IMG/VR virus record: IMGVR_UViG_3300034375_004593
Coordinates: 1-30,208 of that record
Length of the DNA stretch: 30,208 bases
From: a virus
Strand: one strand, 5' to 3'
Position numbers and translations under genes: made by a program. Under the pieces are notes generated by a model. That model was given only the letters and a program-made list of their open reading frames with translations. It had not been told where the DNA came from and ran no database searches. Positions 3,449 to 29,110 of this stretch are shown in pieces. The number at the start of each line of letters is the position of its first letter. Position 1 is the first letter of the stretch.

Positions 3449-4015
3449 TTACATATCAAATTCATTATAATCTTCAAGCAGTTCTGGATCAAGGTTATCT
3501 TGATACAGGTGTGCTATCTGATACTTATTTTGTATAACTGCATACTTAGTCCAATCTTTTGGATATTCTGAGCTAACAGATCTTTTAAATTCTCTGCAAG
3601 CTTCAAATTTCCAAAGCTCTCTATTTTTAAACTTATACTTTGCTGAGGCATTTGTATAAAATATTTTAGCAATATGACCATCAGTATCCCAGTTATTATT
3701 TTGCAGAACCTTACTATACTCATTTGACTTTGCATAATTTATGTTAGTCTTATTATATTTAGCAGGAGAACAACTTCCTATAAATAAATAACCCAATGAG
3801 TCGGGTAATTCTACACCATCTCTATATTCAATAACACCATGCCATAAATTCTTATTATAAAGCTTTATAATCTTTTTAAGCTTGTCATTATCTATACTTC
3901 CATATTTAGGATATTTATCCTTAAATTCTTTCAGTAAAGTTCTATTTAAAAGACTTAATCTCTTCTCTCTAAATCTAGGAGCTTTAAGATCAGGTTTTCT
4001 AAAAATTTTAGTCAT
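3449..4015 (-). CDS. Conserved-looking protein of unknown function (188 aa)
   Basis: A basic, Lys/Asn/Tyr-rich protein of 188 residues. The N-terminal part is highly charged and probably helical (residues 1-55). It is followed by a hydrophobic segment NLWHGVIEYRDGVELPDSLG and a C-terminal part with many aromatic residues (NRELWKFEACREFKRSV). I have a sense of this pattern recurring in tail regions of Bacteroidota phages but can attach no function to it. No signal peptide, membrane segment or known catalytic motif is visible. The basic character would fit nucleic-acid or capsid-interior contact, but that is speculation. The gene has a 58 bp AT-rich leader (4016-4073) after the metallophosphoesterase stop, longer than most gaps here. 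It lies two bases ahead of the ring protein gene. Confidence 0.7.
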   Translation of the reverse strand: MTKIFRKPDLKAPRFREKRLSLLNRTLLKEFKDKYPKYGSIDNDKLKKIIKLYNKNLWHGVIEYRDGVELPDSLGYLFIGSCSPAKYNKTNINYAKSNEYSKVLQNNNWDTDGHIAKIFYTNASAKYKFKNRELWKFEACREFKRSVSSEYPKDWTKYAVIQNKYQIAHLYQDNLDPELLEDYNEFDM

Positions 4016-4073
4016 AGTGTTTATATTATAATTTACAAAAAAAACCGCACTTATAAAAGTTAAACATTAAAGT

Positions 4074-5970: not shown

Positions 5971-8900
5971 TTAAGGTGTACAAGATGCACATACATCATA
6001 TCTGCTATCTAAGTCTGTTGCTAATTCTACAGCTACAGCAGAACAGTTATCAAGTACTGTAACACATCTGTTTGTCAATGTTACCCAGTCTGCTCTACCT
6101 CCACCTGGTGTAAAAGTAGCTCCGGGATTAAACAATTTAATTACACTTCCATTTGCTATTGTACCACAAGAATGATCTGTTATGCTTACATAATATACAT
6201 CACTTGTTGAACAGTCCTCTACTTCATATACTGATAATGCTGGTATAGTTGTAGCAGGATAAGCATCTGCACATCCTTTTAGGGATCTTGTCAATCTTGT
6301 TCTAAAATCTCCATCACCATTTTTAATCTCGTTATTAAATACACTTGTACTATATTCTTGATCTAAGAAGGCTAATGTTCCAAAGTTAGTTTTACCAAAT
6401 AGTTGAGTTACTGTATTTGATGGAGTAGTAGCTCCTTTATAAGGCATGGAAGCCGCAACACCCTGAAGTATATAATTAGTTACATCTGGTGCAGTTTTAA
6501 TACCATATTTACTTGGCGGTATTAACTCAGCTGTATAAGCAGAAATCATTTGCAATATGTTAGCCGCATCTGCAGATCCAGAACCATTAACAGTCATTGG
6601 ATACAATATTGCAGATAATCCATCAGGGAACTGAGTTTGAGTAAGACCTAAAGCCTGAGCCCATAAACTTGTTTGTGTTCCATCTAACATATCAATTAAT
6701 GCATCATAGTCTTCTTTGTAGCTTGCTGTTGGTTGAGCTGTAACACCACTACCATATCCTGCAGCTAATGTAGAATCATGATAACTTCCACTTGAATCAT
6801 TAGAGAATACCATTACAGTTGCTGCGTTTTTATATACACCAACTCCAGATCCTCCTGGCCAAGATGTTGGTAATAATTCTAAAGCTTGCCATGCTAAATC
6901 AGCAGACTGAGTCCAACTTGCACCATCATCTACAACAGCTTTAAAGTATCCAAGCCATCTTTTAGAATCTGTAGGTATAAAATAAATATTACCAGAGAAT
7001 CCAAACTCAAGAGCCCAGTAAGCTCTAAGTTGTGTAAATCCATTGCTAAGCAAAGCTCCTTCAGCTGAAGTAATTCCATTTGTATTAACAAAGACATATA
7101 AGTCTTGATCTGTATGTTCTAGTTTTACATCACAAGCCACAGTTTGAATTTGCACTGTAAATGTATCTAAAGAACAGTTTCCAGTTCCTGGAACTGTAGG
7201 TTGCAACTGAACTTGGAATGTATCAGCATAATCCGTACTTCTAGAAGGATTTACTGTAGTATATGTAAACTGATTTGCAATAGCTCCTTGAACTACTGTA
7301 CCTAATACAGGATTGGTTATAACAGACATATCTGGTTCACCTGCTCCTAATACATATGGTAATGTAATATCTACACTATCTCCATCAAGTCCACATAGTA
7401 TTTGAATTGGATCAGATAATATAAATGTTGGACAAGCACAACATTCTACAACAGATCTTACACTATTTGTAGCATTATCCCATCCTGCATAAATATATCT
7501 TGTTAATGAGCCATCTACTCTTTTTCCAATGTAGAACCAATAACTTTCAGCAGAACCTCCAAATACTGTATATGTAGAAGTACCACACTCTAGATATTGT
7601 CTAGAAACTTCAATACCTGCAGGACATGCAGCACTTAAAGATGTAGTAGCACATTCCTGAGCACTTTGTATTGTTGTCCAAGCTTCTGTTTCAAAGTCAT
7701 ATCTTATGATTGTTGGAATACTTTCTAATGGCCCTGTACATGTTGTTTGAACCTTTATATAAACAGATCCGCTAGTTTGTCCGGTAGATATAGTTCTTAA
7801 ACCATCAGCTCCAGTAGTTAATCCATTATATGTTATATCATCAACACTCCATGATATTTCAGCACTAACTGGTGAAGGCTCTGTACCATAACTTACAGTA
7901 ACCGCAACATCTCCTGGCGTACCAAGATAATCCATAGTTGGACTTGTAAGTATTGGAGAGTCACACGGAACTGTTGCACCAACATTTTCTTCTTTAATTA
8001 AACCATCTGCAAAATCATACCAATATCTATTAACTGTAATACCACTATCATATAAACCTAAAAATACATCCGCTGTTTCTACAGCTGCAGTTGATGGAGC
8101 TATAACTTCTACATCATTGCATATTACACCTGGAATTGTAATTACTTCTACTGGACATGTATTTCTAGAACTTGGTCCAGCTATAACTGTAATTTGAACA
8201 TTATATGTATCTCCAGGAGTAGCTCCTGTAAATGTATAGTTAATTGATGCAGGAGGATTTGTAATAGTAGTAGTTCCTAAAACTGCACCTGATGACTGAC
8301 TAACAGCTTCTATTTGATATTGAACAGATGATCCTAAATTGTTTACAAATGCTACTTGTATAGAACTTGGTCCTGCAGCTACAGTAACACCTGATGGGCA
8401 AGGAACAGTCAATGGTATAATTACTTGTTGTCTATCTGCACATTGCGAATTACCATCTGTAACACAAAATGGAATACTTAAAATTAATGAGGATAATCTA
8501 TTTAAACTTGAAATATCAATATTTACACCAGTAGATGAAGTAAGCAATCCACTTACATTAATATTTTGAGAAGTTGTAGTTCCATCAGAATCTGTAACAG
8601 TAACTGTCGTTACACCATTACAATCTGTAAATCCTGTTGGAATTCTAGCTGCTTGAAAGTTCAAGTTAATTGCATCAGGAACTCCTGTACCTGATGAATC
8701 TATTGTGTTATATGTAAATGCAAAATCTGCACCATCACATTGTTTTGGTAATGCTTCTTGTATATCAGAAACAGCCGTATATAAATCACCTAATAATTTC
8801 CATTGATTTATATTTGATTCAGCTAGATTCTTTGGTGAATCCACCCAACCTGTAATATCACCCAATGTTCCTGCTACAGATAATCTCTTGTTACCTGCAC

Positions 8901-9564
8901 TAATAGTTTGAGATGATATAGCTTCATTTATAACACCTGTACCACCAACAACATTTATTTGTTTACATAATTCTGATTCAATTGCAAGAACCAATGTTGA
9001 AATAGACACCTCTTGTCCTTCAAACAAACATCCTGATATAACGCTAAAGTCTGCTTCTGAATTTGGTGAACATGGTAAAACGCATGCCTCTAATGTAGCT
9101 ACTCTAGCACTTAAGTTTTTAAAGTTTTGGCTAATTGTTGTTAGTGAGCTTATTACACTACATAATTGATTCCCTATATATACCGCCCAGTCATTTGGAG
9201 TTAACTCTGTAACTAAGTTCCCTAAGCTATCTCTATATTGCAAACATTCAGGTAATGCAAAATTATCCAAAGCCTTCACAGGACTTTCTGCACATACTGC
9301 ATCTATAATAGCTTGCAATGTTGCAACAAGACCTTCTGGTGGAGTTTCCACAATACATGATATATCTAAACCTGTAAGATCTGGATTACATTCACAAGTT
9401 GCACCTATAATGTTGCATAGTTCTTCTGCTAATTTTGCAACAACATCACTGACTGTATCACCATTACATAAGTTAATGCATGATATATCCGGACCCTGCC
9501 ATATGACGCAGTTTGATGAAACTGGCGTACAAGGAGAAGTATTATTTGTATTTGACGGTAACAT
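5971..9564 (-). CDS. Large cysteine-rich tail fibre/adhesin with FN3 and possible vWA-like domains (1197 aa)
   Basis: The largest gene in the window, encoding 1197 residues with about 40 cysteines. The N-terminal 200 residues contain three motifs of one kind, each ending in a short amphipathic helix and Cys (near residues 25-50, 66-91 and 175-200), plus a short coiled-coil segment at about 140-165, consistent with a trimerising attachment region. Residues about 389-478 read as a fibronectin type III domain; further Ig-like beta-sandwiches lie at about 535-610 and 713-811. Residues about 812-1100 open with a hydrophobic strand DLYVFVNTNG and contain VMVFSNDSSGSYHDS, reminiscent of a von Willebrand A-like fold, though the canonical DxSxS ligand set is not in its usual place. 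The C-terminus ends in a cysteine-rich tail. It has a candidate promoter motif directly before its ATG. The role is most likely host-surface recognition or a tail appendage. Confidence 0.75.
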   Translation of the reverse strand: MLPSNTNNTSPCTPVSSNCVIWQGPDISCINLCNGDTVSDVVAKLAEELCNIIGATCECNPDLTGLDISCIVETPPEGLVATLQAIIDAVCAESPVKALDNFALPECLQYRDSLGNLVTELTPNDWAVYIGNQLCSVISSLTTISQNFKNLSARVATLEACVLPCSPNSEADFSVISGCLFEGQEVSISTLVLAIESELCKQINVVGGTGVINEAISSQTISAGNKRLSVAGTLGDITGWVDSPKNLAESNINQWKLLGDLYTAVSDIQEALPKQCDGADFAFTYNTIDSSGTGVPDAINLNFQAARIPTGFTDCNGVTTVTVTDSDGTTTSQNINVSGLLTSSTGVNIDISSLNRLSSLILSIPFCVTDGNSQCADRQQVIIPLTVPCPSGVTVAAGPSSIQVAFVNNLGSSVQYQIEAVSQSSGAVLGTTTITNPPASINYTFTGATPGDTYNVQITVIAGPSSRNTCPVEVITIPGVICNDVEVIAPSTAAVETADVFLGLYDSGITVNRYWYDFADGLIKEENVGATVPCDSPILTSPTMDYLGTPGDVAVTVSYGTEPSPVSAEISWSVDDITYNGLTTGADGLRTISTGQTSGSVYIKVQTTCTGPLESIPTIIRYDFETEAWTTIQSAQECATTSLSAACPAGIEVSRQYLECGTSTYTVFGGSAESYWFYIGKRVDGSLTRYIYAGWDNATNSVRSVVECCACPTFILSDPIQILCGLDGDSVDITLPYVLGAGEPDMSVITNPVLGTVVQGAIANQFTYTTVNPSRSTDYADTFQVQLQPTVPGTGNCSLDTFTVQIQTVACDVKLEHTDQDLYVFVNTNGITSAEGALLSNGFTQLRAYWALEFGFSGNIYFIPTDSKRWLGYFKAVVDDGASWTQSADLAWQALELLPTSWPGGSGVGVYKNAATVMVFSNDSSGSYHDSTLAAGYGSGVTAQPTASYKEDYDALIDMLDGTQTSLWAQALGLTQTQFPDGLSAILYPMTVNGSGSADAANILQMISAYTAELIPPSKYGIKTAPDVTNYILQGVAASMPYKGATTPSNTVTQLFGKTNFGTLAFLDQEYSTSVFNNEIKNGDGDFRTRLTRSLKGCADAYPATTIPALSVYEVEDCSTSDVYYVSITDHSCGTIANGSVIKLFNPGATFTPGGGRADWVTLTNRCVTVLDNCSAVAVELATDLDSRYDVCASCTP

Positions 9565-9569
9565 AGTAT

Positions 9570-9581
9570 ATATATAATATA
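9570..9581 (-). promoter_or_regulatory. Candidate late promoter motif before the 1197-residue fibre gene
   Basis: The minus strand carries TATATTATATAT here, inside the longer TTATTATATTATATAT that is shared exactly with the site before the 491-residue gene. It ends only six bases before the ATG at 9564, so if it is a promoter the mRNA would be nearly leaderless. Alternatively it is an AU-rich translation enhancer. It is assigned because the same 12-mer precedes two other late units. Confidence 0.4.
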
Positions 9582-9596
9582 ATAATTTTTAAAATT

Positions 9597-9815
9597 TTAT
9601 CCTACTTCATCACAATTAATTGCTTGACTAACTAGACCTTCTGTTCTAGTAAGGGTTTCATTTTTTAACTCCTCCCAGTTACATGCTTCACGTTTAATTG
9701 TAATAGATTGAAGATCATAATAGCAACATGGAGTAAGACCAAATCTTACAGATATAAAATCCTTATATGCTGCATTTGCAAACTCAGTTTCTATTTTTAT
9801 TTTTTCTTCAGCCAT
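9597..9815 (-). CDS. Small structural-region protein of unknown function (72 aa)
   Basis: A 72-residue acidic protein with a CCYYD motif in the middle and two further cysteines. The N-terminus (MAEEKIKIETEFANAAYKDF) is hydrophilic; no membrane segment is visible. Its ATG overlaps the upstream 57-residue gene's stop as TAATG at 9813-9817, so it is translationally coupled. It lies directly before the large fibre gene and after the adaptor-like 184-residue gene, so it may be a small adaptor or fibre-assembly factor, but nothing in the sequence proves this. Confidence 0.7.
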   Translation of the reverse strand: MAEEKIKIETEFANAAYKDFISVRFGLTPCCYYDLQSITIKREACNWEELKNETLTRTEGLVSQAINCDEVG

Positions 9816-9988
9816 TATTTTAATAAATTAGACTTAGCTGTATTTAATGTATTTGTCAATTTATTTGAAGATACACTAAGAGTACTATTGTATTTGCTAA
9901 GACATGATTTATGTACGGTATTTCCATCCTTTGCTTTAGTCTTTTGACATCCGCAGGAAAAACCTTTATTACAACTTGCACAATTCAT
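9815..9988 (-). CDS. Cysteine-rich microprotein (57 aa)
   Basis: A 57-residue protein beginning MNCASCNKGFSCGCQKTK, with cysteines at residues 3, 6, 12, 14 and 29. The CxxC...CxC...C spacing fits a small zinc-binding or disulphide-rich knuckle. The C-terminal half is Ser/Thr/Asn/Leu-rich and probably helical. It fills the otherwise empty gap between the 184- and 72-residue genes, starts 11 bases after the upstream stop, and its TAA overlaps the next ATG as TAATG. This gap-filling and coupling make it very likely a real gene despite its size. I recall similar short 'CxxCxxxxSCGCQK' proteins beside tail genes in other Bacteroidota phages, but could not check this. Its role is unknown, perhaps virion-associated like its cysteine-rich neighbours. 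Confidence 0.8.
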   Translation of the reverse strand: MNCASCNKGFSCGCQKTKAKDGNTVHKSCLSKYNSTLSVSSNKLTNTLNTAKSNLLK

Positions 9989-9999
9989 ATATATTGGTT

Positions 10000-10554
10000 T
10001 TAACAGTTAGCTGTTGTGGTACAAAGTATTTTTCTCAAACGCTTCAATGCATAGTTATACATTTCCATCCCTTTCTTTGGGTTAATGCAATATTCAACTT
10101 GAGCTTTAGCTGAGTCAATTAAAATACGTAAGTAATTAACTTCTTTAATTAGATCTTGCTTATCTGATGATGGTTCACAATCAGCTAAGTTTAATCCGCA
10201 TAATACTTCGTAGTATAGATTTAAAATTGCTGTTGTACGTAAATGGTTATATTCAACAAAAGCCTTATCATTTGGTGATAGGCTATATCTAATAACATAA
10301 ACTCCATCTGGTAATGCTATGTTTTCTTCTCCGCAGCCTGTAGTCTGTATTTGCAAATCACATCCTGCTAGATTTAAATCAAAACCTGGAGTAACCTCAA
10401 TCAGTGCAGGTTTATTAAATCCAGGCGTTGTAATAAGAAGTTCTGGGCAATCTTTTGCCAAAATATCAGAGTACTGACTTGTATCTCTTATAGATAGAAT
10501 TTCACAGTTTGCAACAGTGGGAACTTCCAAACTTAGGATATGCTTTTCAGCCAT
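10000..10554 (-). CDS. Probable virion adaptor protein (184 aa)
   Basis: The reading frame is open up to 10626, but the first 24 codons there would lie on the terminator hairpin of the previous gene. The ATG at 10554 (MAEKHILSLEV) is the credible start and gives 184 residues. The N-terminal 110 residues look beta-rich with a VYVIRYSLSPNDKAFVEYNH stretch; residues about 115-184 look helical and include LIKEVNYLRILIDSAKAQVEYC, a likely tail-tube or fibre contact helix. Eight or so cysteines match the cysteine-rich style of nearby tail genes. It lies between the 491-residue gene and the cysteine-rich microprotein, downstream of an intrinsic terminator, so it should have its own promoter near 10578-10589. 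The role as neck or tail adaptor is inference from position. Confidence 0.68.
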   Translation of the reverse strand: MAEKHILSLEVPTVANCEILSIRDTSQYSDILAKDCPELLITTPGFNKPALIEVTPGFDLNLAGCDLQIQTTGCGEENIALPDGVYVIRYSLSPNDKAFVEYNHLRTTAILNLYYEVLCGLNLADCEPSSDKQDLIKEVNYLRILIDSAKAQVEYCINPKKGMEMYNYALKRLRKILCTTTANC

Positions 10555-10577
10555 GGAACTAATTTTATTATACGTAC

Positions 10578-10589
10578 AATAATAATATA
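10578..10589 (-). promoter_or_regulatory. Possible degenerate late promoter before the 184-residue gene
   Basis: The minus strand reads TATATTATTATT here, sharing TATATTAT with the TATATTATATAT motif found before three other late units. It lies just after the terminator of the previous gene and 23 bases before the ATG at 10554, where a new promoter is needed. The match is partial and the region is AT-rich, so it could be chance. Confidence 0.25.
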
Positions 10590-10602
10590 CAAAAAAACTT
10601 AC

Positions 10603-10641
10603 AATAAAAAAAGAAAGGTGAGACATAAAATCTCACCTTTC
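10603..10641 (-). terminator. Strong intrinsic terminator after the 491-residue virion gene
   Basis: On the minus strand a perfect 11-bp stem GAAAGGTGAGA (10641-10631) pairs with TCTCACCTTTC (10623-10613) around a 7-nt loop, followed by CTTTTTTT. It starts 20 bases after the stop at 10662. This is one of the clearest terminators in the window and, with the promoter motif at 12185-12196, makes the 491-residue gene a single-gene unit. Confidence 0.95.
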
Positions 10642-10661
10642 AATTTAGTTCTGGTTAGATA

Positions 10662-12137
10662 TTACAATCCACCAGCAGGATCAAAGTCAACATTGTAGTT
10701 ACCTACACTTAAGCATGCCGCTTCAATTTCATTAAACATAGTGTCTAATGCTGAAATAGCAGCTGCGTCATCTGACTTAACATATATTTGATATAGATAT
10801 TGATCATTGTCAAATACACCACTAGGGTTATTCAAACGTGGAACACTGTGCTGTAAGTAATATACAACATAAAGAGCATTTCTATCAACTGCAGCTAAGA
10901 TAGGATCAAACCCTTCAATTTCACGGATTCTAGAAGAATCTCTGTTTCCTTGATTGTATGGATTCTGAGCATATCTTTCAGTCATCAATAGATGTCTTAA
11001 TACAGTTTCACCTGAAGTTTGAGCCATTTGTCCTGGAGTAGCTGTAGCAACACCACAGTCATTACAAGGATTTCCTGTTTCATCCATTGCAGAAAGAATG
11101 ATTGATACAGGCTCTTTTTCATAATGATCTCTAGTATCAAATGAACAGTTACCAAATTTAGTGTCAACATAAGCACCAACTACACAAACTTTAGCAGTTA
11201 CTGCATCACCTACTGGATCAGTAGATGGAGTATAAGTACCATCAAGAACTTCAGCAATTGTGTAAACTGTAGGTGCACCACCAACTGTAACAACCATACC
11301 AGCAGCACTTACTGTAAGAGTTGCAGTTTCATCATCAGATGCACCACCACCTTGAGTAATAGTAATTACATCACCGTTAGTATAACCAGATCCTGGGTTA
11401 GCCACAGTAACAGCAGTAATATCACCAGCAGCAGCAGTAATATCTACAGTTAAACCTGTACCTGTACCACCAGTTGTAGCAACACCAGATGCAGTAGTAT
11501 ATCCAGTACCAGTAACAGCACCAAGTGCAATTGCAGTAACATTATTTCCTTCTGCCATAAATGGAGCAACAATAGGATCAGCCAAGATCATTTGCATAGA
11601 AGCAGCAAGTGCCAATGCTGGATCAAGATATTCTTGTCCATCTACACAACAAAGACCTGGAAGTGGTCCTCCGTTAGCAGCAGCGTCACCTGAACTATCA
11701 CCAATAGCATAAGCATTGTGATTCAAGAAACGTAATGCTGGAGATCCTTTAACATCAGCACGAACAAAAAGATTTTGTCCACAAGGAGCGCATGTAGATC
11801 CTACCTCAAGACAAGCAGTTGCTTGAGCAGCATCAACAACAGCAGCTTTACCAAGTCTACTAATGTAGTTAAAGTTAATACCTTTTGATTTGATTGATTC
11901 TTGGTATCCTCCGTGTCCTGGATTGTTACCAATGTTGTCTGTAGCGTGGAAGTTACCACCTACTAAGTAAGCTAAAGCTTTTGCTGTTACAATGTCAGCA
12001 GCCGCATCTACTTCCCAGTTGTCACTACGAACAAGTCCAAGTTGACCCGGAGTCAATGCACTTGTAGCAGTACCATCCGCAGGAGCAGCTCCTACAGCTA
12101 GCCAGCTTTTTGTAAAAGCATGATTAAAATAAGCCAT
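10662..12137 (-). CDS. Probable abundant virion protein (tail or head component) with inserted beta domain (491 aa)
   Basis: A 491-residue Ala/Gly-rich, low-Lys protein beginning MAYFNHAFTKSW. It has its own promoter-like motif, a possible 5' stem-loop and a strong terminator, as expected of a highly expressed structural protein. Residues about 1-195 and 283-491 look like one alpha/beta domain split by an insertion at about 200-282. The insertion is almost only Gly, Thr, Ala, Val and Ser and contains VANPGSGYTNGDVITITQGG, a repeat type I recognise from decoration domains in other marine phage virion proteins. Cysteines cluster at residues 109-119, 163-164 and 358-361. Candidates are tail tube, sheath-like, inner-core or capsid accessory protein; no diagnostic motif decides. 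With a podovirus-like ring/muzzle module nearby, a long contractile tail seems less likely. Confidence 0.65.
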   Translation of the reverse strand: MAYFNHAFTKSWLAVGAAPADGTATSALTPGQLGLVRSDNWEVDAAADIVTAKALAYLVGGNFHATDNIGNNPGHGGYQESIKSKGINFNYISRLGKAAVVDAAQATACLEVGSTCAPCGQNLFVRADVKGSPALRFLNHNAYAIGDSSGDAAANGGPLPGLCCVDGQEYLDPALALAASMQMILADPIVAPFMAEGNNVTAIALGAVTGTGYTTASGVATTGGTGTGLTVDITAAAGDITAVTVANPGSGYTNGDVITITQGGGASDDETATLTVSAAGMVVTVGGAPTVYTIAEVLDGTYTPSTDPVGDAVTAKVCVVGAYVDTKFGNCSFDTRDHYEKEPVSIILSAMDETGNPCNDCGVATATPGQMAQTSGETVLRHLLMTERYAQNPYNQGNRDSSRIREIEGFDPILAAVDRNALYVVYYLQHSVPRLNNPSGVFDNDQYLYQIYVKSDDAAAISALDTMFNEIEAACLSVGNYNVDFDPAGGL

Positions 12138-12171
12138 AATTAAAAATTTAAAAAATTAGAAACATAAAATT

Positions 12172-12184
12172 GTCCTCTTTGGAC
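12172..12184 (-). promoter_or_regulatory. Possible 5' mRNA stem-loop upstream of the 491-residue gene
   Basis: The minus strand reads GTCCAAAGAGGAC, a 4-bp GTCC/GGAC stem with a 5-nt loop, directly downstream of the promoter motif at 12185-12196. If transcription starts a few bases after that motif, the stem would sit at the very 5' end of the mRNA, a known way to protect abundant phage transcripts. It is short and could also be an operator half-site pair. Confidence 0.35.
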
Positions 12185-12196
12185 ATATATAATATA
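12185..12196 (-). promoter_or_regulatory. Candidate late promoter motif before the 491-residue gene
   Basis: The minus strand carries TATATTATATAT, within TTATTATATTATATAT shared with the fibre-gene site, 47 bases before the ATG at 12137. The preceding gene cluster begins a new unit here, in an 82 bp gap. It resembles T4-style single-box late promoters in form, not a host Bacteroidota -33/-7 pair. Confidence 0.5.
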
Positions 12197-12219
12197 ATAA
12201 AACTTTTTTACTTAGACAA

Positions 12220-12606
12220 TTACTTAAGAAAAATTAATTTATACTTTGTGCTATCAATTAAAGATTTGATTACATCCAACTCATTAATTATCTCTGAATA
12301 CTCACAAGTATCTTGCACTCTGGTAATTGCACCATGTAACTTTCTTAAATACTCAATAGCATTTTCAGGAGTACTTATAGGAACTACTTCTACTGTAGGA
12401 TAATCTAAAAGTTCTTCTGTTGCTCCTTGATATTGTTCAGCTACCGCATCAACTAAATCTGGTAAAGCATCATAAAAATCATTAAGTGCCATATGAGCAG
12501 AAAAACTTGTAGTTTTTAAATGGGTCATATGAGTTTTAGTAGCACCATGTAATAACTCTGCTATAAGAGCTCCCATTTTTGGAGTTTGTCTTTTTATTGT
12601 TTTCAT
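12220..12606 (-). CDS. Dps/ferritin-like four-helix protein (DUF5856-like)
   Basis: A 128-residue helical protein. Residues 20-61 hold H20, H26, H29, H38, then ALNDFYDALPDLVDAVAEQYQG. The alternating H/D/E residues (H38, D43, D46, D50, D53, E57) are the pattern of ferritin-like Dps and DUF5856-type phage proteins, which bind metal in a four-helix bundle. The C-terminus ends in a further Glu/Asp-bearing helix (INELDVIKSLIDSTKYKL). The length is close to the small end of this family. Its ATG overlaps the upstream ring-type gene's stop as TAATG, so it is made together with structural proteins. Possible roles are metal storage, oxidative protection of DNA or a virion component; the choice cannot be made from sequence. 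The family call is by motif recognition. Confidence 0.68.
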   Translation of the reverse strand: MKTIKRQTPKMGALIAELLHGATKTHMTHLKTTSFSAHMALNDFYDALPDLVDAVAEQYQGATEELLDYPTVEVVPISTPENAIEYLRKLHGAITRVQDTCEYSEIINELDVIKSLIDSTKYKLIFLK

Positions 12607-13313
12607 TAGTTAGATCTTTCAGCAGCTGCTTGTTCACGCTGCATTTGATTAAAGTTATCAATATCACCTGCAATAATAGCAGCAGTTTCATCTAATATAA
12701 GCTCTACAATATCATCTTTAAATTCAGACTCTACATCTGCGGTAGAAACCACACCTGTATATGGATTTAAAACACCAGCAAATTCAACATACACAGGTCT
12801 TCTATAATATGTTAAAACTGGATTGACAATATCAAAGTCCTCATTTCTGTATATTCTGATTTTATTTCCTAATAGAGTACAGAATGTTTCAGCCCAGTCA
12901 TAATCTGGTCTTTTCAAAGGATCTCTTAGATTTAGATTAACGTTTGCTTCTTCAGATAAATAAACTGACATTGGAAGATTATCAGGACAACACTCACTCT
13001 TTGCTTCTGCACTTACTCTTTTAAATTCTAAATAATCATCTATTGGAAAATTATCTGTTTCAAAATAAGTATCTGTTTGTGTGCCTGTTAATGGTAACTC
13101 TGTCAATAAAACTTGAAGGTCATCAATTCTCCTTTTAGAAAACTCATCCCCTTCTTTATAAGGATTACCTCCATGTAGCTGCCTTCTGGGCCATTCTACC
13201 TGGGCCTTATTAAAGGCTTCAATCATTTGCCATTTCTCTATGTTGTCATAGTCATTGCTGGCTAATTTATTTAACCTTTGTTTAAGCTTTATTTCAAGAG
13301 TATAATTATCCAT
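12606..13313 (-). CDS. Ring/connector-type neck protein (235 aa)
   Basis: A longer in-frame ATG exists at 13325, but the ATG at 13313 (MDNYTLEIKLKQRL) overlaps the upstream stop as TAATG, matching other junctions here, so I start it there. The N-terminal helices (LKQRLNKLASNDYDNIEKWQMIEAFNKA) precede a beta-rich middle and a C-terminal helix FKDDIVELILDETAAIIAGD. This is the layout of crAss-like ring proteins that dock under the portal. 'VEWPRRQ' and 'NPVLTYYRRPVYVEF' are features I associate with that group. Together with the proteins at 1867-3446 it would make the head-to-tail interface. The role is inferred from pattern and context. Confidence 0.6.
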   Translation of the reverse strand: MDNYTLEIKLKQRLNKLASNDYDNIEKWQMIEAFNKAQVEWPRRQLHGGNPYKEGDEFSKRRIDDLQVLLTELPLTGTQTDTYFETDNFPIDDYLEFKRVSAEAKSECCPDNLPMSVYLSEEANVNLNLRDPLKRPDYDWAETFCTLLGNKIRIYRNEDFDIVNPVLTYYRRPVYVEFAGVLNPYTGVVSTADVESEFKDDIVELILDETAAIIAGDIDNFNQMQREQAAAERSN

Positions 13314-14329
13314 TATGCATTCCAATAAGGTTCAATCTTATCCATCAAAGATTTTAATATTTCATCATTTTCAGGATTTGACAAAAATGTAACCACTTCA
13401 CTAGGTACTTTACCAAGACGTATACTGTTATCTAAAGGTTCAATGAATCCGTTAGATTTTAACATTATAAATCTATAAAACATAGCATCTTTTACTAAAG
13501 CTCTTAGTTTTAAGTTTTTCATTGTATCATCAGCCGCTTCAATAAATCCTTCAGCAGCACGTTTTTTACTAGACTCTGTACCTTGACCATTGATGTAAGC
13601 ATCCATGTTTTCATAAATAATATCTAGCTGTGTAGACTTACTATATTGTACACTATCAGCATCAACAACTTTTGCAACATACATAAGCTTGCTGGAATTC
13701 TTAGAATAAAGTTCTTCTAATTTACCAATAGCTCTGTTTCTAAGTTTTGTATACTCTGTTCTTGTAGATACAGTTTCTTGAGATTGATCTAAATAAAACT
13801 TTTTAGGATTTGGAGATTTTTTTGCATCTCTTAAAGATCTAGAAATCATTGAGAAACCTCCTGCATTAATTGCATGTATTTTAATTAAATCATATGGATC
13901 TTTAACCGGATCTAAAAATACAGGCTCATTTCCACATCTTAATTCTATCTTAGACCAAAACTTATCATTGTCTGGTTTTAACAATTGTACTTTATTCCAG
14001 AAGTCTTTATCTTCAGGATCAATGATGTTTGCTGCAAGTTCTGCTTCTAATTGAGCCACAGTCTTTCTGATTTCTTTAACCTTAAGTTCTTTTTCCCCAG
14101 GAGGTAATCTTTTAATCTCTGGAGCAAATTCATTTAAACCAGTTACATATCTTTTGATACCGTTTAGTTCAAGACATGCTAATGATTCTTGATGCCATAC
14201 TCCTTCATGAAGTGACATGCCATATTGCTCTAATCCCATATTCTCTCTATCAGGATTAAAATAAGGTCTAATAGCTACAGTAGTATCTTTACCTTGTTGA
14301 TACTTTTCTACAATAGTGTAATCTTCCAT
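13313..14329 (-). CDS. Head/neck-region protein of unknown function (338 aa)
   Basis: A mainly helical, charged protein of 338 residues. The N-terminal 120 residues have a mixed pattern including MGLEQYGMSLHEGVWHQES and a Lys/Glu-rich helix (EKELKVKEIRKTVAQLEAEL). The C-terminal half is helical with DAMFYRFIMLKSNGFI near residue 285, a likely hydrophobic core segment. There is no signal peptide or enzyme motif. It overlaps the ring-type gene by one base (TAATG) and follows a 107 bp gap with palindromes. In crAss-like phages this position between capsid and ring genes holds cargo or auxiliary virion proteins, which is a possible role here. I do not recognise the family with confidence. Confidence 0.7.
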   Translation of the reverse strand: MEDYTIVEKYQQGKDTTVAIRPYFNPDRENMGLEQYGMSLHEGVWHQESLACLELNGIKRYVTGLNEFAPEIKRLPPGEKELKVKEIRKTVAQLEAELAANIIDPEDKDFWNKVQLLKPDNDKFWSKIELRCGNEPVFLDPVKDPYDLIKIHAINAGGFSMISRSLRDAKKSPNPKKFYLDQSQETVSTRTEYTKLRNRAIGKLEELYSKNSSKLMYVAKVVDADSVQYSKSTQLDIIYENMDAYINGQGTESSKKRAAEGFIEAADDTMKNLKLRALVKDAMFYRFIMLKSNGFIEPLDNSIRLGKVPSEVVTFLSNPENDEILKSLMDKIEPYWNA

Positions 14330-14367
14330 TTGTTTTATTGGTTTTAAAAATTAATTATTACTCAAAA

Positions 14368-14383
14368 GTACATAATTATGTAC
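14368..14383. repeat. 16-bp perfect palindrome in the gap before the 338-residue gene
   Basis: GTACATAATTATGTAC reads identically on both strands. It is 39 bases upstream of the ATG at 14329, inside an AT-rich gap that otherwise holds only a short GC hairpin. It could be a dimeric regulator site or a transcript hairpin. In such AT-rich DNA a chance origin is possible but the length is notable. Confidence 0.5.
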
Positions 14384-14405
14384 ATTATTAATTAATATTT
14401 CTAAT

Positions 14406-14420
14406 GCCGGATAAACCGGC
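14406..14420 (-). terminator. Short GC hairpin after the 213-residue gene (weak or partial terminator)
   Basis: GCCGG-ATAAA-CCGGC forms a 5-bp GC stem 16 bases past the stop at 14437. On the minus strand it is preceded by AAAAAAC and followed by ATTAG, not a U-tract, so it would be a weak terminator or a 3'-end stabiliser. On the plus strand a T-run begins four bases after the stem, which could stop antisense transcription. Confidence 0.4.
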
Positions 14421-14436
14421 AAAGTTTTTTGAGCAA

Positions 14437-15078
14437 TTACTTACCTACATATTTAAAGTTTGTGTCTTGCTGTACAGGAGCCGCTAATTTTTTAGCAGAC
14501 GCTGCATCAGATATTGAAAGTAATCTATCAGCAAAAGTTTTAACTTTAGAATATTTATTTATACATGCATCATTTAATGTTTTAAGTGCCTTTAATCTTT
14601 TATCTAATTCTTTTTCTTTTTCTTTTGATATACTAGAATCTCTCTTTATGAGGGATACTTTAACTGCTCTAACTATATGATCAAGGTATTTGCTAGCATA
14701 ATATTTTGTATTAAGCGCTTTTTCTGATTTTTTTAGTTTAGCGGCTTCTTCAATAATTTCAGCAGCAGCTCGTTTATCTGCAGCTAATGCAGCATCTTCT
14801 TTTGCTACTGAAGCTTCAGCCTCTCTTTTTGCATATTCAATAGCAGTCATTTCTTCAAGTTCAGCAAGAGATTTTTTATACTGTTCTTCTGTAATTTTAC
14901 CTGCTATAAGAGCTTCTTTAAGGCTTACTTGCTTGTCCGCAATTTTAACTCCTGCATCCGTAGGAAAAAGTGCAGCTGATTCCGCATAAGCTTTTTGTGT
15001 GAAAGTGGGTTCAGCAATAGAAACTTCTTTCACCCTATCGTCTGATATATCTAATTTTTGTGCATATAATTCTGCCAT
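14437..15078 (-). CDS. Helical coiled-coil protein downstream of the capsid gene (213 aa)
   Basis: A 213-residue Ala/Lys/Glu-rich protein with long predicted helices from about residue 50 to 190, including a strongly heptad-like region (AELEEMTAIEYAKREAEASV and onward). The C-terminus is basic and ends FKYVGK. It has one cysteine. There is no enzyme or membrane signature. The gene lies two genes after the major capsid protein and is ended by a weak hairpin. Such long-helix proteins beside capsid genes can be internal virion (cargo) or assembly proteins; that is an inference from composition and place. Confidence 0.68.
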   Translation of the reverse strand: MAELYAQKLDISDDRVKEVSIAEPTFTQKAYAESAALFPTDAGVKIADKQVSLKEALIAGKITEEQYKKSLAELEEMTAIEYAKREAEASVAKEDAALAADKRAAAEIIEEAAKLKKSEKALNTKYYASKYLDHIVRAVKVSLIKRDSSISKEKEKELDKRLKALKTLNDACINKYSKVKTFADRLLSISDAASAKKLAAPVQQDTNFKYVGK

Positions 15079-15091
15079 GACTTATTTTTTA

Positions 15092-15742
15092 TTAAATTAA
15101 TACTGGTGTTACTCCTTCGTAGCATAAAAATTCAAATCTAACAATTGCAACAGCTGAACCTGTCTCAGTACCTCCTGGCTGATTTGCAACCATTGTTAAA
15201 TTAAATGTTACTTCACTTCCACTTGTAGTTTCAACTAAACCACAAAAATCAGATGCAAGCCCATCGCCTCCATTGCTATTTGTAAATTCAGCTCCATTTG
15301 ACAATGAGTTTATTACATTACCACCTGAAGCAGCATCTGCACAAATAACAGCACCTGATACTTGTAATGGAAAATAATAACCTTCATTTGCTTGTCCTGG
15401 AACTGACGGTATATTTACAACAGCAGGAACTGATACTGTAACAGCTGCATCTAAAAATGCTTTAATAGTGAGCATCCAACCTTCTTGAACAACTCCATCA
15501 GAGTATGTAATCTTGGTAGCTGTTTTTTGAAGTCCTAGTGTTGGAATACCATCAATACTTGCATTATTTGTTTCAACTTGGTCACTTACCAACTGTAACG
15601 CAGCTTCAGTTTGACTGCCTAATTGATTAACATGTGAAAGTTTTGCTAACTGAATTGTACTATCACCTTTCTTTCCGGCACGTACATCTTTTCTAATGTA
15701 CTTATCTGGAAATAAGGATTTTATTCTATCTATAAATGCCAT
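15092..15742 (-). CDS. Beta-rich virion protein next to the capsid gene (216 aa)
   Basis: A 216-residue protein with a basic helical start (AFIDRIKSLFPDKYIRKDVR), a middle helix (ALQLVSDQVETNNAS) and, from about residue 75, a Ser/Val/Gly/Thr-rich beta domain with three cysteines. This build (basic docking helix plus beta-sandwich) suits a head fibre or capsid decoration protein that attaches to the shell, but I do not recognise a named family. The ATG lies only about 20 bases beyond the T-tract of the capsid gene's terminator, leaving no room for a separate promoter. It is therefore probably expressed by read-through, at a lower level than the capsid protein. Confidence 0.68.
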   Translation of the reverse strand: MAFIDRIKSLFPDKYIRKDVRAGKKGDSTIQLAKLSHVNQLGSQTEAALQLVSDQVETNNASIDGIPTLGLQKTATKITYSDGVVQEGWMLTIKAFLDAAVTVSVPAVVNIPSVPGQANEGYYFPLQVSGAVICADAASGGNVINSLSNGAEFTNSNGGDGLASDFCGLVETTSGSEVTFNLTMVANQPGGTETGSAVAIVRFEFLCYEGVTPVLI

Positions 15743-15762
15743 TTTTCTAGTTTTAAAATGTT

Positions 15763-15790
15763 AAAAAAAAAGGGGAGGATTAACCTCCCC
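15763..15790 (-). terminator. Strong intrinsic terminator after the major capsid gene
   Basis: On the minus strand GGGGAGG (15790-15784), a 5-nt loop and CCTCCCC (15778-15772) form a GC-only 7-bp stem followed by nine T. It lies 14 bases past the capsid stop. It should cut most transcription before the 216-residue gene. Confidence 0.95.
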
Positions 15791-15804
15791 CGTTTTAATT
15801 ATTC

Positions 15805-17424
15805 TTAGAATGATCCTCCCGTTACTGGGTTTCTCATTACAATCTTCAACACTTTAGTTGGATCCTTAACCCAAATAGCCGGCATACACTGAGTCATGTA
15901 AACTCTGTATCCATTGAACTGTCCAGTAGAAGCAAACCCTTGAGTTCGTCCCATGTAGTCCATTGTACCATTTTGGTAGAACCACTTCAATTGATTATCC
16001 CAAGATAACTTCAATAAGTGAATGTTATCATTTCCATTATCAGTTACATCAAAAATGATAAAGCTGAATGAGCTAAGAGGACGTCCATCAATCAATGGAT
16101 TCTCAATATCATTAGTATGTAAGTTGTCAAATGCTGGGTTAAGTACAAACTTAACGTTTGCAAGGAAAGGAATTGTAAAGCTTGTGTAAGCAAATCCAAA
16201 GTCTAGATCCATTCCTTTTCCAGTTACTGCACCAATATCAGAAGCATTTTGAACTAATCCAGAACCATATACTTCATCAGCAATAGCTTTGTTGATTAGT
16301 TGCATACCTCCAATACCTGTTTGTACAATAAGCTGACGTTGTGGGTCTGGCCCTTTGAACTCAACTTTACCTTGGTAGAAGTTATACAATTCAGATTTAA
16401 ACATGTCAAGTGTAAAGCTAGACTTGTTGTATACTCTTTTAAATGAGTTATCCAACTGTGACCAAAGACCAACAGATAATCTAATATCATCTGGACCGTC
16501 TTGTCTGATTCTACCACCTTTACCCCACATTAGGTAAGTTTCAATATCATTTGCAATTTTAGATAAGTGAGCAGCTTCCATATTTGTAACGAAAGTTCTT
16601 GATAAAGAACCGCTTTCAAATGCTTCTCTTGCTCCTGCTTTACCCATACTTGCAACTAACTCTTCAATAGAAGAAACAGATGGATTGTTAGGATCTTGGT
16701 TAAAGTTTCTCCAGATCTCAGTTACTGGAACAGTACCGTCAGCATTCATTCCTCCTTTAAGCATCAAATCAGCTCTTGAAGAAATTGAATAGTGTACGTG
16801 TGCTTCAGCTCCTCCTACAAAGTTGTAGAACTCACGGAATCCAGATCCAGTCTCAAGGTCTGAGAATCTTTCACCATACTCACCTCTAGCAGAACCTTTT
16901 CTGAAGTACTTAGTTCCAGGAACCAAATACAAAGAAGCGTCTAAACTAGCTGCATTGTTGTTATTCACTAACTGAACTGTGTAAATGAATCCGTCACCAG
17001 CAGGAATAATATCCTCAGCAGTGATGTACATTTCAAGTCCATTGTACTTATCATAGGTAATGATGTCACCGTGACCAAAAGCTCTCTTAGAAAGTTTAAT
17101 TCTAAAAGTAGTACCGTCTGCACCAAGATCATTTACTGATTCAATGTTAGAAACAATAAATGGAAGATCTTGTGCAATTGGAGTTTGCCACTTATACTCA
17201 CCGCGAGCATTATCTACCATGATTGTGTTTTTACCACCAAATGATGCCATTTGATAGAGGGGCATTTCAACCTTTTGAGTCATTGCCCATAGATCAACAG
17301 GTCCCATGTCCATAGGTTCGCTAGAACCAAGCATCTGAGACAAGTGATAGGAATCAACATGAGAAGAAGCCTTATAAGCTGTATCTCTCAAGAAAATCCC
17401 ATTGTTTAAAACTGGAGTTGCCAT
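15805..17424 (-). CDS. Major capsid protein
   Basis: A 539-residue protein placed directly after an acidic scaffold gene and before a strong terminator, the standard position and transcription layout of a phage major capsid gene. The sequence is well balanced with few cysteines. Its N-terminal arm (residues 1-55) is followed by alpha/beta sequence with many aromatic and Gly turns, including FYNFVGGAEAHVHYS and PDDIRLSVGLWSQLDNSFKR. It ends in a beta-rich segment with NGYRVYMTQCMPAIWVK. The size and pattern fit the HK97-fold capsid proteins of large Bacteroidota podophages (usually about 450-550 residues), but the fold itself cannot be proven by eye. The gap to the scaffold gene is 54 bases with no obvious promoter, so both are likely read from the promoter-like motif at 18780-18791. 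Confidence 0.82.
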   Translation of the reverse strand: MATPVLNNGIFLRDTAYKASSHVDSYHLSQMLGSSEPMDMGPVDLWAMTQKVEMPLYQMASFGGKNTIMVDNARGEYKWQTPIAQDLPFIVSNIESVNDLGADGTTFRIKLSKRAFGHGDIITYDKYNGLEMYITAEDIIPAGDGFIYTVQLVNNNNAASLDASLYLVPGTKYFRKGSARGEYGERFSDLETGSGFREFYNFVGGAEAHVHYSISSRADLMLKGGMNADGTVPVTEIWRNFNQDPNNPSVSSIEELVASMGKAGAREAFESGSLSRTFVTNMEAAHLSKIANDIETYLMWGKGGRIRQDGPDDIRLSVGLWSQLDNSFKRVYNKSSFTLDMFKSELYNFYQGKVEFKGPDPQRQLIVQTGIGGMQLINKAIADEVYGSGLVQNASDIGAVTGKGMDLDFGFAYTSFTIPFLANVKFVLNPAFDNLHTNDIENPLIDGRPLSSFSFIIFDVTDNGNDNIHLLKLSWDNQLKWFYQNGTMDYMGRTQGFASTGQFNGYRVYMTQCMPAIWVKDPTKVLKIVMRNPVTGGSF

Positions 17425-17478
17425 AATTGATTGTTTTTAGTTGTTATTTATTATTTGATTATTAAATCCATTATTTAT

Positions 17479-18747
17479 TTACATTCTTTTAAAAATGTTT
17501 GTTGGTTTTGGTATTTTTCTTTGTACTGGTTTTTGTTCTTTTTCTCTTTCAGCTACACCTAGGGAAGCGGCTCCTTTATTAGCTTGCTCCATCTTAAGTT
17601 TTCTAACTGTTTTTTCAGTATTCTTTTGAGCTCCCATTTCCATGATTCTTGACTTATATCCTTTTGGATCTGCCAATAGCCATAAGGCTTCAGAAATCAA
17701 AGTATAGTTAGGCTCTTGAAACTGATACTTTTCCAACAAGTGTCCTAGCAAATTAGTGTTCTTACCACTAACAGAAGGATATGCCGGTTGAACTAGACCA
17801 TTATATAATAGTGATTGCGTCTTTTTATCAAGCTTCATATCACCCAATGATCCATCTTTCAGCGTATGGTATACATTATTCATGTATTGTTTAGATGCAT
17901 CTGCTTGTTGTTTTTGCTTAAGCTGTTGCTCCTCTAATTTTTGAGCAACAATTTTTTCTTGCATCTTATCTAATTTAGGTTTAAACTTCATAGCCTGCGC
18001 TTCAAGTTTACCTAAATCTTTCCATATTTCTATTTCTTCAGCAATCTCTTCTGGAGTACCATACTGTGTACTTGTTAGATATTCTGTAATAATTTTTTCT
18101 TGACCTCTTTCTGTAGAAGCATCAATCTCAAAAGTTTCTTCAGCTTGAGCTAAAGTTCTAAAAAGACTTTTAAGATCTGTACCACCATTTGCTACATATT
18201 GTGCTGCAACTTTTAATTCATTAGGAAGGGCATCAAAAAATTGCTTTGGTGTTTCACGTCTAACTTGATTTGCTCTTTCTTCTAGATTAGCCTCAAGAAG
18301 CTCCTCAATATCTTTTGCTGTGTATTCTTCTAATGGTTTATCATCATCAAAAGCAAATAACTTATCAGATTTAACCATCTTATTTATTACATCAGTAAAG
18401 CCATTGATTGGTTTTCTACCTCTAGTTTCAACTTGTTCCTCTTCAAAATCATCATCTTCAGAATCATCATCTAAATCAGATAGTATATCTCCGCCTTCTT
18501 TTTTAATACCTTCTACTGTTTTTTCAGTAGCAGCTTTTGGAGCATCCTCATCTTCATCAAGTAAGTCTGCCTCATCAGTTGGTTCTGTAAATGTAAAGTC
18601 TGCTTCTGGTTTAACTCTATCTAAGATGTTTGGTTTTTTATCTTCTTCAGGTAAAGTTACACTAGCTGCATCTGCTCCACCAAACAGATCATCAATATTA
18701 ATATCTACTTTTTCTACAGTAGTTTCTTCCATGTTCTTATTACTCAT
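17479..18747 (-). CDS. Capsid scaffolding/assembly protein
   Basis: A 422-residue, very acidic protein. The first 120 residues are dominated by Asp/Glu (for example DLDDDSEDDDFEEEQ at about residues 92-106). Residues about 230-295 form a Gln/Lys/Glu-rich coiled coil (KLDKMQEKIVAQKLEEQQLK), and the C-terminus is basic (KPVQRKIPKPTNIFKRM). An acidic N-terminus, coiled coil and basic capsid-binding tail, immediately before the capsid gene, is the pattern of tailed-phage scaffold proteins, which guide capsid assembly and then leave or are degraded. No protease motif is visible, so a separate maturation protease, if any, must lie outside the window. It is first in a unit with the promoter-like motif 33 bases upstream. 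Confidence 0.82.
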   Translation of the reverse strand: MSNKNMEETTVEKVDINIDDLFGGADAASVTLPEEDKKPNILDRVKPEADFTFTEPTDEADLLDEDEDAPKAATEKTVEGIKKEGGDILSDLDDDSEDDDFEEEQVETRGRKPINGFTDVINKMVKSDKLFAFDDDKPLEEYTAKDIEELLEANLEERANQVRRETPKQFFDALPNELKVAAQYVANGGTDLKSLFRTLAQAEETFEIDASTERGQEKIITEYLTSTQYGTPEEIAEEIEIWKDLGKLEAQAMKFKPKLDKMQEKIVAQKLEEQQLKQKQQADASKQYMNNVYHTLKDGSLGDMKLDKKTQSLLYNGLVQPAYPSVSGKNTNLLGHLLEKYQFQEPNYTLISEALWLLADPKGYKSRIMEMGAQKNTEKTVRKLKMEQANKGAASLGVAEREKEQKPVQRKIPKPTNIFKRM

Positions 18748-18899
18748 AATTGTTGGTTTTAAAATTCAAATGAACTATCATATATAATATAAAACAAAGT
18801 TTTCAGATAAACTTATATTATTTGAACTTTGTTTAAAGTTTTTACTAGTATTATAGCTAACGTCAATTTTTTTTTTATTTTATTTAAATTGATTTAGTT
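18748..18899 (-). promoter_or_regulatory. 152-bp intergenic control region upstream of scaffold/capsid genes
   Basis: The largest gap in the window. Minus-strand reading gives, in order: a T/A-rich tract after the 88-residue gene; an inverted repeat AAACAAAGTT...AACTTTGTTT (arms about 18820-18829 and 18792-18801) with an AT-rich interior; then the candidate promoter box TATATTATATAT at 18780-18791. The repeat directly abuts the box, so it may be a terminator for the upstream unit, an operator, or both. I see no gene in it. Confidence 0.5.
18780..18791 (-). promoter_or_regulatory. Candidate late promoter motif before scaffold/capsid unit
   Basis: TATATTATATAT on the minus strand, 33 bases ahead of the scaffold ATG. 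The same 12-mer precedes the 491- and 1197-residue genes. Position before the capsid unit is where a strong late promoter is expected. Confidence 0.5.
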
Positions 18900-28404: not shown

Positions 28405-28760
28405 ATATTATCTTTTTTAAATTCTTTTTTTCTTTCTATTGATTCTTCAATTTTTTCCAATATACCCTCAAACTTTTTAATCTTCTTTTTAGTTTGTAAG
28501 GTTTTTTCATAACCATTGTATGTATGCTTTTCTAGATTACCTAAATAACTTTTGTTTTTAGTTATTGCTTTTTCTAGCCTTGCTTTTCTTATTGAAAATG
28601 TACCCAAAGATTCAACATATATTCTAGTATCTTGTATTTCAGACAAAGATTGTCTTACTTTAGAAAAATAAAAAGATATTAAATCATCCACTACAGATTG
28701 GTTTACACCTACTTCTTCCGCTATATCTTCTTTAAATATTTTGTTGCTTTTGGGCCTCAC
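28401..28760 (-). CDS. HU/IHF-family DNA-bending protein
   Basis: A 119-residue protein with an HU/IHF core: two N-terminal helices (FKEDIAEEVGVNQSVVDDLISFYFSKVRQSL) and the family signature LGTFSIRKARLEKAI (compare HU 'GFGTFxVRxRxAR'), then a long Lys/Glu-rich helical tail from about residue 70 instead of the normal DNA-gripping arm and end. It would bind and bend DNA, in replication, packaging or late transcription. crAss-like phages also encode IHF-like proteins. The start is GTG at 28760, in a GTGA overlap with the preceding gene's stop; no ATG lies near. The altered C-terminal half may change DNA binding or make a coiled-coil contact. Confidence 0.8.
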   Translation of the reverse strand: MRPKSNKIFKEDIAEEVGVNQSVVDDLISFYFSKVRQSLSEIQDTRIYVESLGTFSIRKARLEKAITKNKSYLGNLEKHTYNGYEKTLQTKKKIKKFEGILEKIEESIERKKEFKKDNI

Positions 28761-29110
28761 TCTCCAAGCACTTTAAAATCTAGTAATACCATACCTGATG
28801 GGATTTCTATTTGTTTAGAAATCGCTACAGTTTTTTTGCTCTTGCCATTCTTTATAATCAAACCTTTTTTAGCAGCCTTATTTACAGCATTACGTGCTGA
28901 TTGTGGGCTCTTAAATATATTATTTGTTACAGCTATTTTACAAAAATCTGTAAGCTCATGCTCACCCAAGATAGCAAGCAAACCTAGACAATCTAGATCT
29001 GCATTGCTAACTTGTATATCTTTAAAAAAGCAGTGAGTTAATATTTGATATTTTAAAGTTTGATCTCGGCTAGTTCTAACTTTCTTTGATACCTTAGTTA
29101 CTTCTGCCAT
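28757..29110 (-). CDS. Small helical, possible winged-helix protein (117 aa)
   Basis: A 117-residue basic protein. Residues about 15-95 have a helix pattern with LGLLAILGEHELTDFCKIAV, then SPQSARNAVNKAAKKGLIIK and a beta-like ending KTVAISKQIEIPSG. The segment 'S.QSARNAVNKAAKKGLI' reads like a recognition helix and wing of a winged-helix domain, so a DNA-binding or transcription role is possible. It comes two bases after the amidase stop and overlaps the IHF-like gene's GTG start by four bases. With the IHF-like protein it could form a small nucleoid or regulatory pair for late genes. This is a pattern-based guess. Confidence 0.6.
   Translation of the reverse strand: MAEVTKVSKKVRTSRDQTLKYQILTHCFFKDIQVSNADLDCLGLLAILGEHELTDFCKIAVTNNIFKSPQSARNAVNKAAKKGLIIKNGKSKKTVAISKQIEIPSGMVLLDFKVLGE

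Follow-up and report, generated by a model that had tools for sequence, protein, structure and literature searches.

A strongly conserved start signal precedes the virion genes of marine crAss-like phages and suggests late retuning of host transcription

We found that a short box in the late-strand intergenic DNA of marine crAss-like phages is a strongly conserved start signal for their virion genes. We are highly confident that the box is a promoter element, and a -7 element within a late promoter is the reading that fits it best. Under the mechanism that we propose, one clade of crAss-like phages would use it as the -7/-10 element of its late promoters, in which TATATTRT at -12 to -5 would follow a T-tract (-18 to -14) and G-13, with transcription predicted to start at a purine 4-5 nt further on. 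The scaffold/capsid, 491-residue, 184-aa, fibre and 188-aa units would each have a start of their own, set by such a box. The arrangement matches that of promoters from Flavobacteria, but with key bases altered, which suggests, at the level of sequence, that these phages may retune the host transcription machinery late in infection. The late promoter class is real and, as far as the literature searched shows, new for this phage group: in that literature, no late promoter motif of crAss-like phages turned up.

The stretch of DNA analysed, here called the window, is an entire virus record of exactly 30,208 bases, with the minus strand as its late coding strand. Judged by its genes, it is a fragment of a crAss-like phage: its TerL, portal and major capsid protein (MCP) match the crAss-type families phrog_6681, phrog_6547 and phrog_11589, respectively, and its gene order is similar to that of crAss001. 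A megablast of the window against phages returned no match. Gene content suggests that the genes preceded by the box are expressed late.

The exact 12-mer TATATTATATAT occurs three times in the window, always on the minus strand, as the initial annotation had reported; dinucleotide shuffles give an expectation of 0.03. Box 1 (18780-18791, minus strand, spanning -12 to -1) precedes the capsid unit. The first gene of this unit encodes a 422-aa scaffold-like protein (17479-18747, minus strand) that has homologues in relatives and whose position before MCP suggests a scaffold role, and the second encodes the 539-aa MCP (15805-17424, minus strand; phrog_11589). The predicted +1 is the G at 18779, giving a leader of 32 nt to the ATG at 18747. 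Box 2 (12185-12196, minus strand) precedes the gene for the 491-residue virion protein (10662-12137, minus strand; weak PHROG structural matches), with a predicted +1 at the G at 12184 and a leader of 47 nt; a TTG at 12217-12219 (minus strand) occupies -35 to -33 as a host-type -33 element. The third exact copy, box 4 (9570-9581, minus strand), precedes the gene for a large fibre-like protein of 1197 aa (5971-9564, minus strand; weak fn3 match), and its predicted +1, the A at 9569, leaves a leader of just 5 nt (ATACT). Also as first described, the sites at 12185 and 9570 have 16 bases in common, TTATTATATTATATAT.

Two variant sites complete the set. The site at 10578-10589 (box 3, TTTTTTTG-TATATTATTATT, minus strand) had been called a partial match. 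The site is real, but it is far from merely partial: a matrix trained only on six other genomes gives it the highest score on the late strand of the window. Box 3 precedes a 184-aa late gene (10000-10554, minus strand), with a predicted +1 at the G at 10577 and a leader of 23 nt to the ATG at 10554. We corrected the start of this gene from that of a 208-aa reading frame (10000-10626), because the longer reading would begin upstream of the promoter, inside a terminator; orthologues share the corrected start position. That intrinsic terminator (10613-10641, minus strand) lies directly upstream of box 3, and its hairpin is also present in the orthologous leaders examined. The earlier statement was that two of the sites follow or adjoin terminators; among the sites listed, only box 3 clearly does so (stem 10641-10613). 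To the three late units already proposed, all of them confirmed, we add a previously unreported fifth member, box 5 (4028-4035, TTTTTTTTG-TAAATTAT, minus strand), which precedes a 188-aa late gene (3449-4015, minus strand, ATG at 4015) and is also found before the orthologues of that gene in other genomes. The five top late-strand sites by the other-genome matrix are those at 10589, 4035, 18791, 12196 and 9581, with box 5 in second place; the fifth, at 9581, is outscored by the topmost shuffle maxima, and the case for it is made mainly by the exact 12-mer and its orthologues. When one mismatch was allowed, the sole additional match was at 1191-1202, on the opposite strand and within a gene. 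The resulting count, 4 against 1.7 expected, is not significant and is uninformative taken alone, and the caution first voiced over the AT-rich background was therefore fair for the window by itself.

The count over related genomes, rather than the window alone, settles that the box is real. With the scaffold-like protein (17479-18747) as query, we obtained 444 relatives in IMG/VR and kept 80 for analysis. The exact box is present in 39 copies in the contigs of 20 relatives, always on one strand per contig, and a box with at most two mismatches precedes the scaffold gene in 79 of the 80 kept relatives. Similarly, in a second set of 69 MCP-derived contigs, the scaffold box was exact in 44 and carried one or two mismatches in 21; altogether the box is conserved in more than 100 relatives. 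The initial annotation had proposed a count of the motif in intergenic versus coding DNA. Across six long related genomes (93-118 kb each, 672 kb in total), all 13 copies of TATATTRTATAT are intergenic, lie on the late strand and stand 3-64 nt before an ATG. These 13 copies fall in 16.9 kb upstream of late-strand genes, where dinucleotide shuffling predicts 0.13 (maximum 1), and the same genomes contain none in 639 kb of coding DNA (sense), none in the 21.5 kb before early/middle genes and none antisense.

The box also discriminates between genes. We scored TATATTRT within 130 nt upstream of each gene in distinct relatives, and found it before the scaffold gene in 57/58, before the 184-aa gene in 27/28 orthologues, before the fibre gene in 9/13 and before the 491-residue gene in 28/35, the last figure being an upper bound because in some cases the matching 8-mer is found some 91 nt upstream rather than at about 50. 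Pooled, these four genes have the motif upstream in 121/134 orthologues, versus 0/265 for eight internal genes: MCP (0/56), portal (0/56), TerL (0/42) and five others (0/35, 0/33, 0/24, 0/12 and 0/7). In the four gene sets, the box comes no closer to the ATG than 7 nt. We used this gene-by-gene contrast and the shuffles in place of a reversed-sequence control, which is weak for TATATTRT, since TATTATAT occurs within TATATTATATAT itself, on the same strand. One could still suppose that the box is not a promoter at all, and instead arose by chance in AT-rich DNA or serves in replication, packaging or RNA processing, as its AT-rich sequence and the unremarkable one-mismatch count in the window alone might lead one to expect. 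Such a box, however, would not readily be exclusive to one strand and to intergenic DNA, lie near start codons, recur in more than 100 relatives far above shuffles and be followed by a hairpin that begins at the predicted +1 (see below), and we regard a non-promoter role as very improbable. Strand, position, conservation and the difference from relatives all lend good support to the description of the box as a phage-specific late promoter.

The form of the promoter emerged from an unseeded expectation-maximisation search of 118 late-strand upstream regions. The top motif was tTTtgTATATTAta (T-tract, G, TATATTA), which is present in about half of the 118 regions with a likelihood far above that of shuffles. 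On the early/middle strand, the unseeded search found no such motif, only GC-rich motifs that look like terminator stems. After refinement, the late motif consists of a T-tract, G, TATATTAT and then A/T, often TRTA; in late upstream regions, A at -6 has a frequency of 0.83 and T at -5 a frequency of 0.69. For the geometry, we aligned 51 deduplicated late boxes with TATATT set to -12 to -7; the search pattern for these boxes itself fixes TATATTRT, and the conservation of those bases is thus taken from the unseeded refined motif. The alignment contains the T-tract at -18 to -14, G-13 at 0.61, a preference for a purine and no C at the predicted +1, and a weak (C/T)TT(G/T) at -36 to -33; about a quarter of the deduplicated boxes have G at -6. 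The same weak signal appears in the same -36 to -33 register in 46 TAnnTTTG sites from phi14:2, crAss001, phi17:2, Lbo-JY46 and csAssE-Sib.

The -33 signal is uneven between genes, and we dropped the idea of a -33 partner in every promoter. A TTG starting at -35/-34 is present in 12 of 16 distinct 491-gene promoter sequences, the window's own included (12219-12217), in none of 15 promoters of the 184-aa gene and in 5 of 22 other late promoters. We also rejected as a -33 element the AAGTTTA that some relatives have in the scaffold promoter, at about -35 to -29; it is at least partly a relic of an older -7. The original suggestion of a T4-like single box that lacks a -33 partner gives way here: about 50 aligned sites sit in the Bacteroidota -12 to -5 register, with the weak upstream signal and the TTG of most 491-gene promoters in addition.

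The leaders of the 491-residue gene bear on the predicted start. A stem-loop at 12185-12171, flagged in the terminator scan, lies downstream of box 2 and behaves as a 5'-leader hairpin: TGTCC AAAGA GGACA, running from -1/+1 of the predicted mRNA (12171-12185, minus strand). Twenty distinct leaders have the box about 50 nt from the ATG, two of them in a variant form that ends in AA or GA; every one of the 20 has a stem of 5 or more pairs starting at about -1/+1 (shuffle mean 3.8, maximum 8). The pairs are compensatory between relatives (TGTCC/GGACA, TGTGC/GCACA, TGTAC/GTACA and TGTATT/AATACA). In a 16-row alignment of the hairpin, 100% of cells are paired, 11 cells are changed on both sides and 10 of the 16 rows have a double change at one pair; when the structures are slid, pairing falls to 18-67%. 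The position of the hairpin fits a transcript that begins at the predicted +1, and a plausible function for it is stabilisation of the mRNA. For the fibre gene, the distance from the predicted +1 to the ATG is 3-8 nt in close relatives, and its mRNA would be nearly leaderless. In flavobacteria, only a minority of mRNAs are of this type (PMC9723704).

Five cultured crAss-like phages (crAss001, phi14:2, phi17:2, csAssE-Sib and Lbo-JY46) likewise have promoters before the scaffold and other virion genes. Their late promoters read TAnnTTTG(C) or close variants, in the same -36 to -33 register; TAnnTTTG boxes precede many of their late genes, and in none of the five does a TATATTRT box precede the scaffold gene. 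An MCP alignment made for phylogenetic reach gave close relatives only, and we therefore took the relatives of Lbo-JY46 as the sister group. Across the eight contigs of this group, the scaffold gene is mostly preceded by host-type boxes (TAAGTTTGCAT, for example), along with some weaker variants. In the window, TAAGTTTA (18808-18815, minus strand) stands 16 nt upstream of box 1, and alignment suggests that it is homologous to the host-type -7 of the sister phages, TAAGTTTG, with the last base changed from G to A. The promoter of one gene differs between sister clades, TAAGTTTG versus TAAGTTTA plus TATATTRT 16 nt downstream, which makes the timing of late genes directly testable in flavobacterial systems. 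Lbo-JY46 itself (PP438436) is recorded as a Leptolyngbya phage, from a cyanobacterium; several of its late genes are preceded by TAnnTTTG boxes of the Bacteroidota type, and the phage may in truth infect a Bacteroidota bacterium that accompanies the cyanobacterium in culture. A further conserved element, GTTAGCTATAATACTA, lies upstream of box 1 (18846-18861, minus strand). Written as GTTAGCTATAATACTG, this element stands about 55 nt upstream of the scaffold box, and in those long genomes that include the region, a similar copy stands before an early-strand 90-aa gene.

Host-type sequences also persist within the window's own clade. Early/middle-strand leaders have TAnnTTTG or TAnnTTTA at conserved places, before the 293-aa and 90-aa genes, and TAnnTTTG is not enriched over the early/middle strand as a whole. 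Two types of promoter thus appear to coexist in a single genome, largely on separate strands. The TAnnTTTACAC leader before the 293-aa gene (84910-85791, minus strand, in the long genome G004) is kept in 6/6 genomes and is likely a middle promoter. In 5/6 genomes, a lone late-strand gene of 140 aa is embedded in the early/middle cluster, next to the gene for uracil-DNA glycosylase; in G004 (103247-103669, plus strand; L096:3247-3669) it has its own TATATTGTTTATGTTAA box.

These comparisons bear on the question of whether the host sigma-A holoenzyme reads the box unaided, with TATATTRT as a tolerated variant of TAnnTTTG and timing set by replication or other means. Unaided reading would account for the shared register, the shared TA and TT positions and the weak -33; moreover, the sigma-A motifs of F. 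psychrophilum occur in variants (PMC9723704), and TATATTTG is kept in some late-strand leaders. Yet T-6/G-5, nearly invariant in F. johnsoniae (PMC6847099), is absent from the late box, sister phages retain TAnnTTTG-type boxes at the same gene, and early/middle leaders of the same genomes keep TAnnTTTG/A. We consider unaided reading unlikely. We put forward, tentatively, that the clade swapped a host-type late promoter for its own, late-specific -7 element, with the host RNA polymerase retuned by a phage protein that has no recognisable sigma-70 domains.

Our preferred reading is that the host RNA polymerase probably reads the late box with altered -7 specificity. Late in infection, this change in specificity would come about through a phage factor or an alternative host sigma. 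We infer the host enzyme from the sigma-type layout together with the attribution of late crAss-like transcription to host RNA polymerase (PMC10136315, PMC8375218), and the altered bases at -6/-5 speak for a change in specificity. Alternatively, the box could be read by the giant RNA polymerase that the phage itself encodes, made anew during infection. All six long relatives encode a protein of about 5,000 aa with the ADFDIDK (DxDxD) motif of the giant virion RNA polymerase, the gene lying beyond the reach of the window, and the crAss001 study leaves open a late use of the phage RNA polymerase subunits (PMC8375218). In phi14:2, however, it is the early genes that the virion enzyme transcribes, with late genes assigned to the host enzyme (PMC10136315); in addition, the layout of the box is sigma-type, and cultured relatives with the same enzyme have host-type late promoters. 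We judge late reading by the giant polymerase to be quite improbable.

The T4 late promoter has the core TATAAATA and works through gp55, gp33 and gp45. An arrangement of this type, in which a gp55-like minimal sigma and a sliding clamp read a single TATA-like box, would fit the one AT-only, -10-like box that dominates the late promoters, as well as the 184-aa gene promoters without a TTG near -35. The likeness to T4 that had been suggested nevertheless fails on several counts, and we regard such a system as highly unlikely: the core is another one, with TATAAATA not enriched in late upstream regions (6 sense versus 5 antisense), and part of the promoters have a -33 TTG. Furthermore, we found no match in the six genomes to sigma region 2/4, beta-clamp or gp45 families (PF04542, PF04545, PF08281, PF02767 and PF09116, E<=1) in a search that could miss very diverged sigma or clamp proteins and that, for PF09116, ran without a strong positive control.

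Two small, conserved proteins were considered and rejected as the late factor. A 117-aa protein (window 28757-29110) gave no sigma match by Foldseek; it is predicted to be a winged helix (AlphaFold pLDDT 81), nearest to Fur/Zur and MecI (Foldseek, best E 1.3e-3). Its gene adjoins an HU-like gene, and the protein has an invariant LDxKxLG near its C-terminus and no family match. For a 171-aa early protein, the predicted fold gave no structural match. Among the products of the replication cluster of G004 (L095:9988-10821 and L096:2020-2487) are a protein resembling spore photoproduct lyase (PF20903) and one resembling DnaA domain IV, the latter below the family cut-off.

Together, these results provide a late promoter motif for a large uncultured clade of crAss-like phages; its starts are predicted to within a base or two, so that transcription units can be drawn from sequence alone. 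If true, a clade-specific, retuned -7 element would be a new late-gene switch for Crassvirales.

Among known promoters, the late box is nearest, base by base, to the F. johnsoniae-type and SM5 promoters, and differs from them at -6/-5. In F. johnsoniae promoters, the -7 element occupies -12 to -5 and transcription starts 4-5 nt after it; T-6 and G-5 are nearly invariant, the -33 is inconspicuous, and tracts near -18 and -28 are AT-rich (PMC6847099). Relative to promoters of the Bacteroidota primary sigma (sigma-ABfr; -33 TTTG / -7 TAnnTTTG; PMC6847099, PMC9723704), the late box keeps TA at -12/-11 and TT at -8/-7, and shares the AT/T-rich tract near -18; the start predicted 4-5 nt downstream would also agree, and a weak, variable TTG near -33 is present in part of the late promoters. 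In contrast, its -6/-5 bases are R-T rather than T-G, so that TATATTRT falls outside TAnnTTTG; -10/-9 are mostly TA, G-13 is conserved and the T-tract is longer. A second class of Flavobacterium psychrophilum promoters, SM5, has TAnnTTGY at -12 to -5 and is ascribed to an alternative sigma (PMC9723704). SM5, compared here through its text description, has in common with the late box its place, TA and TT, and a pyrimidine at -5, and late boxes with TATATTGT match the TAnnTTGY consensus exactly; most late boxes, however, have A rather than G at -6, and the late boxes overall thus do not share the G-6 plus pyrimidine -5 of SM5. From these comparisons, we conclude that the late promoter is a variant of a known, Bacteroidota-type kind rather than a T4-like system.
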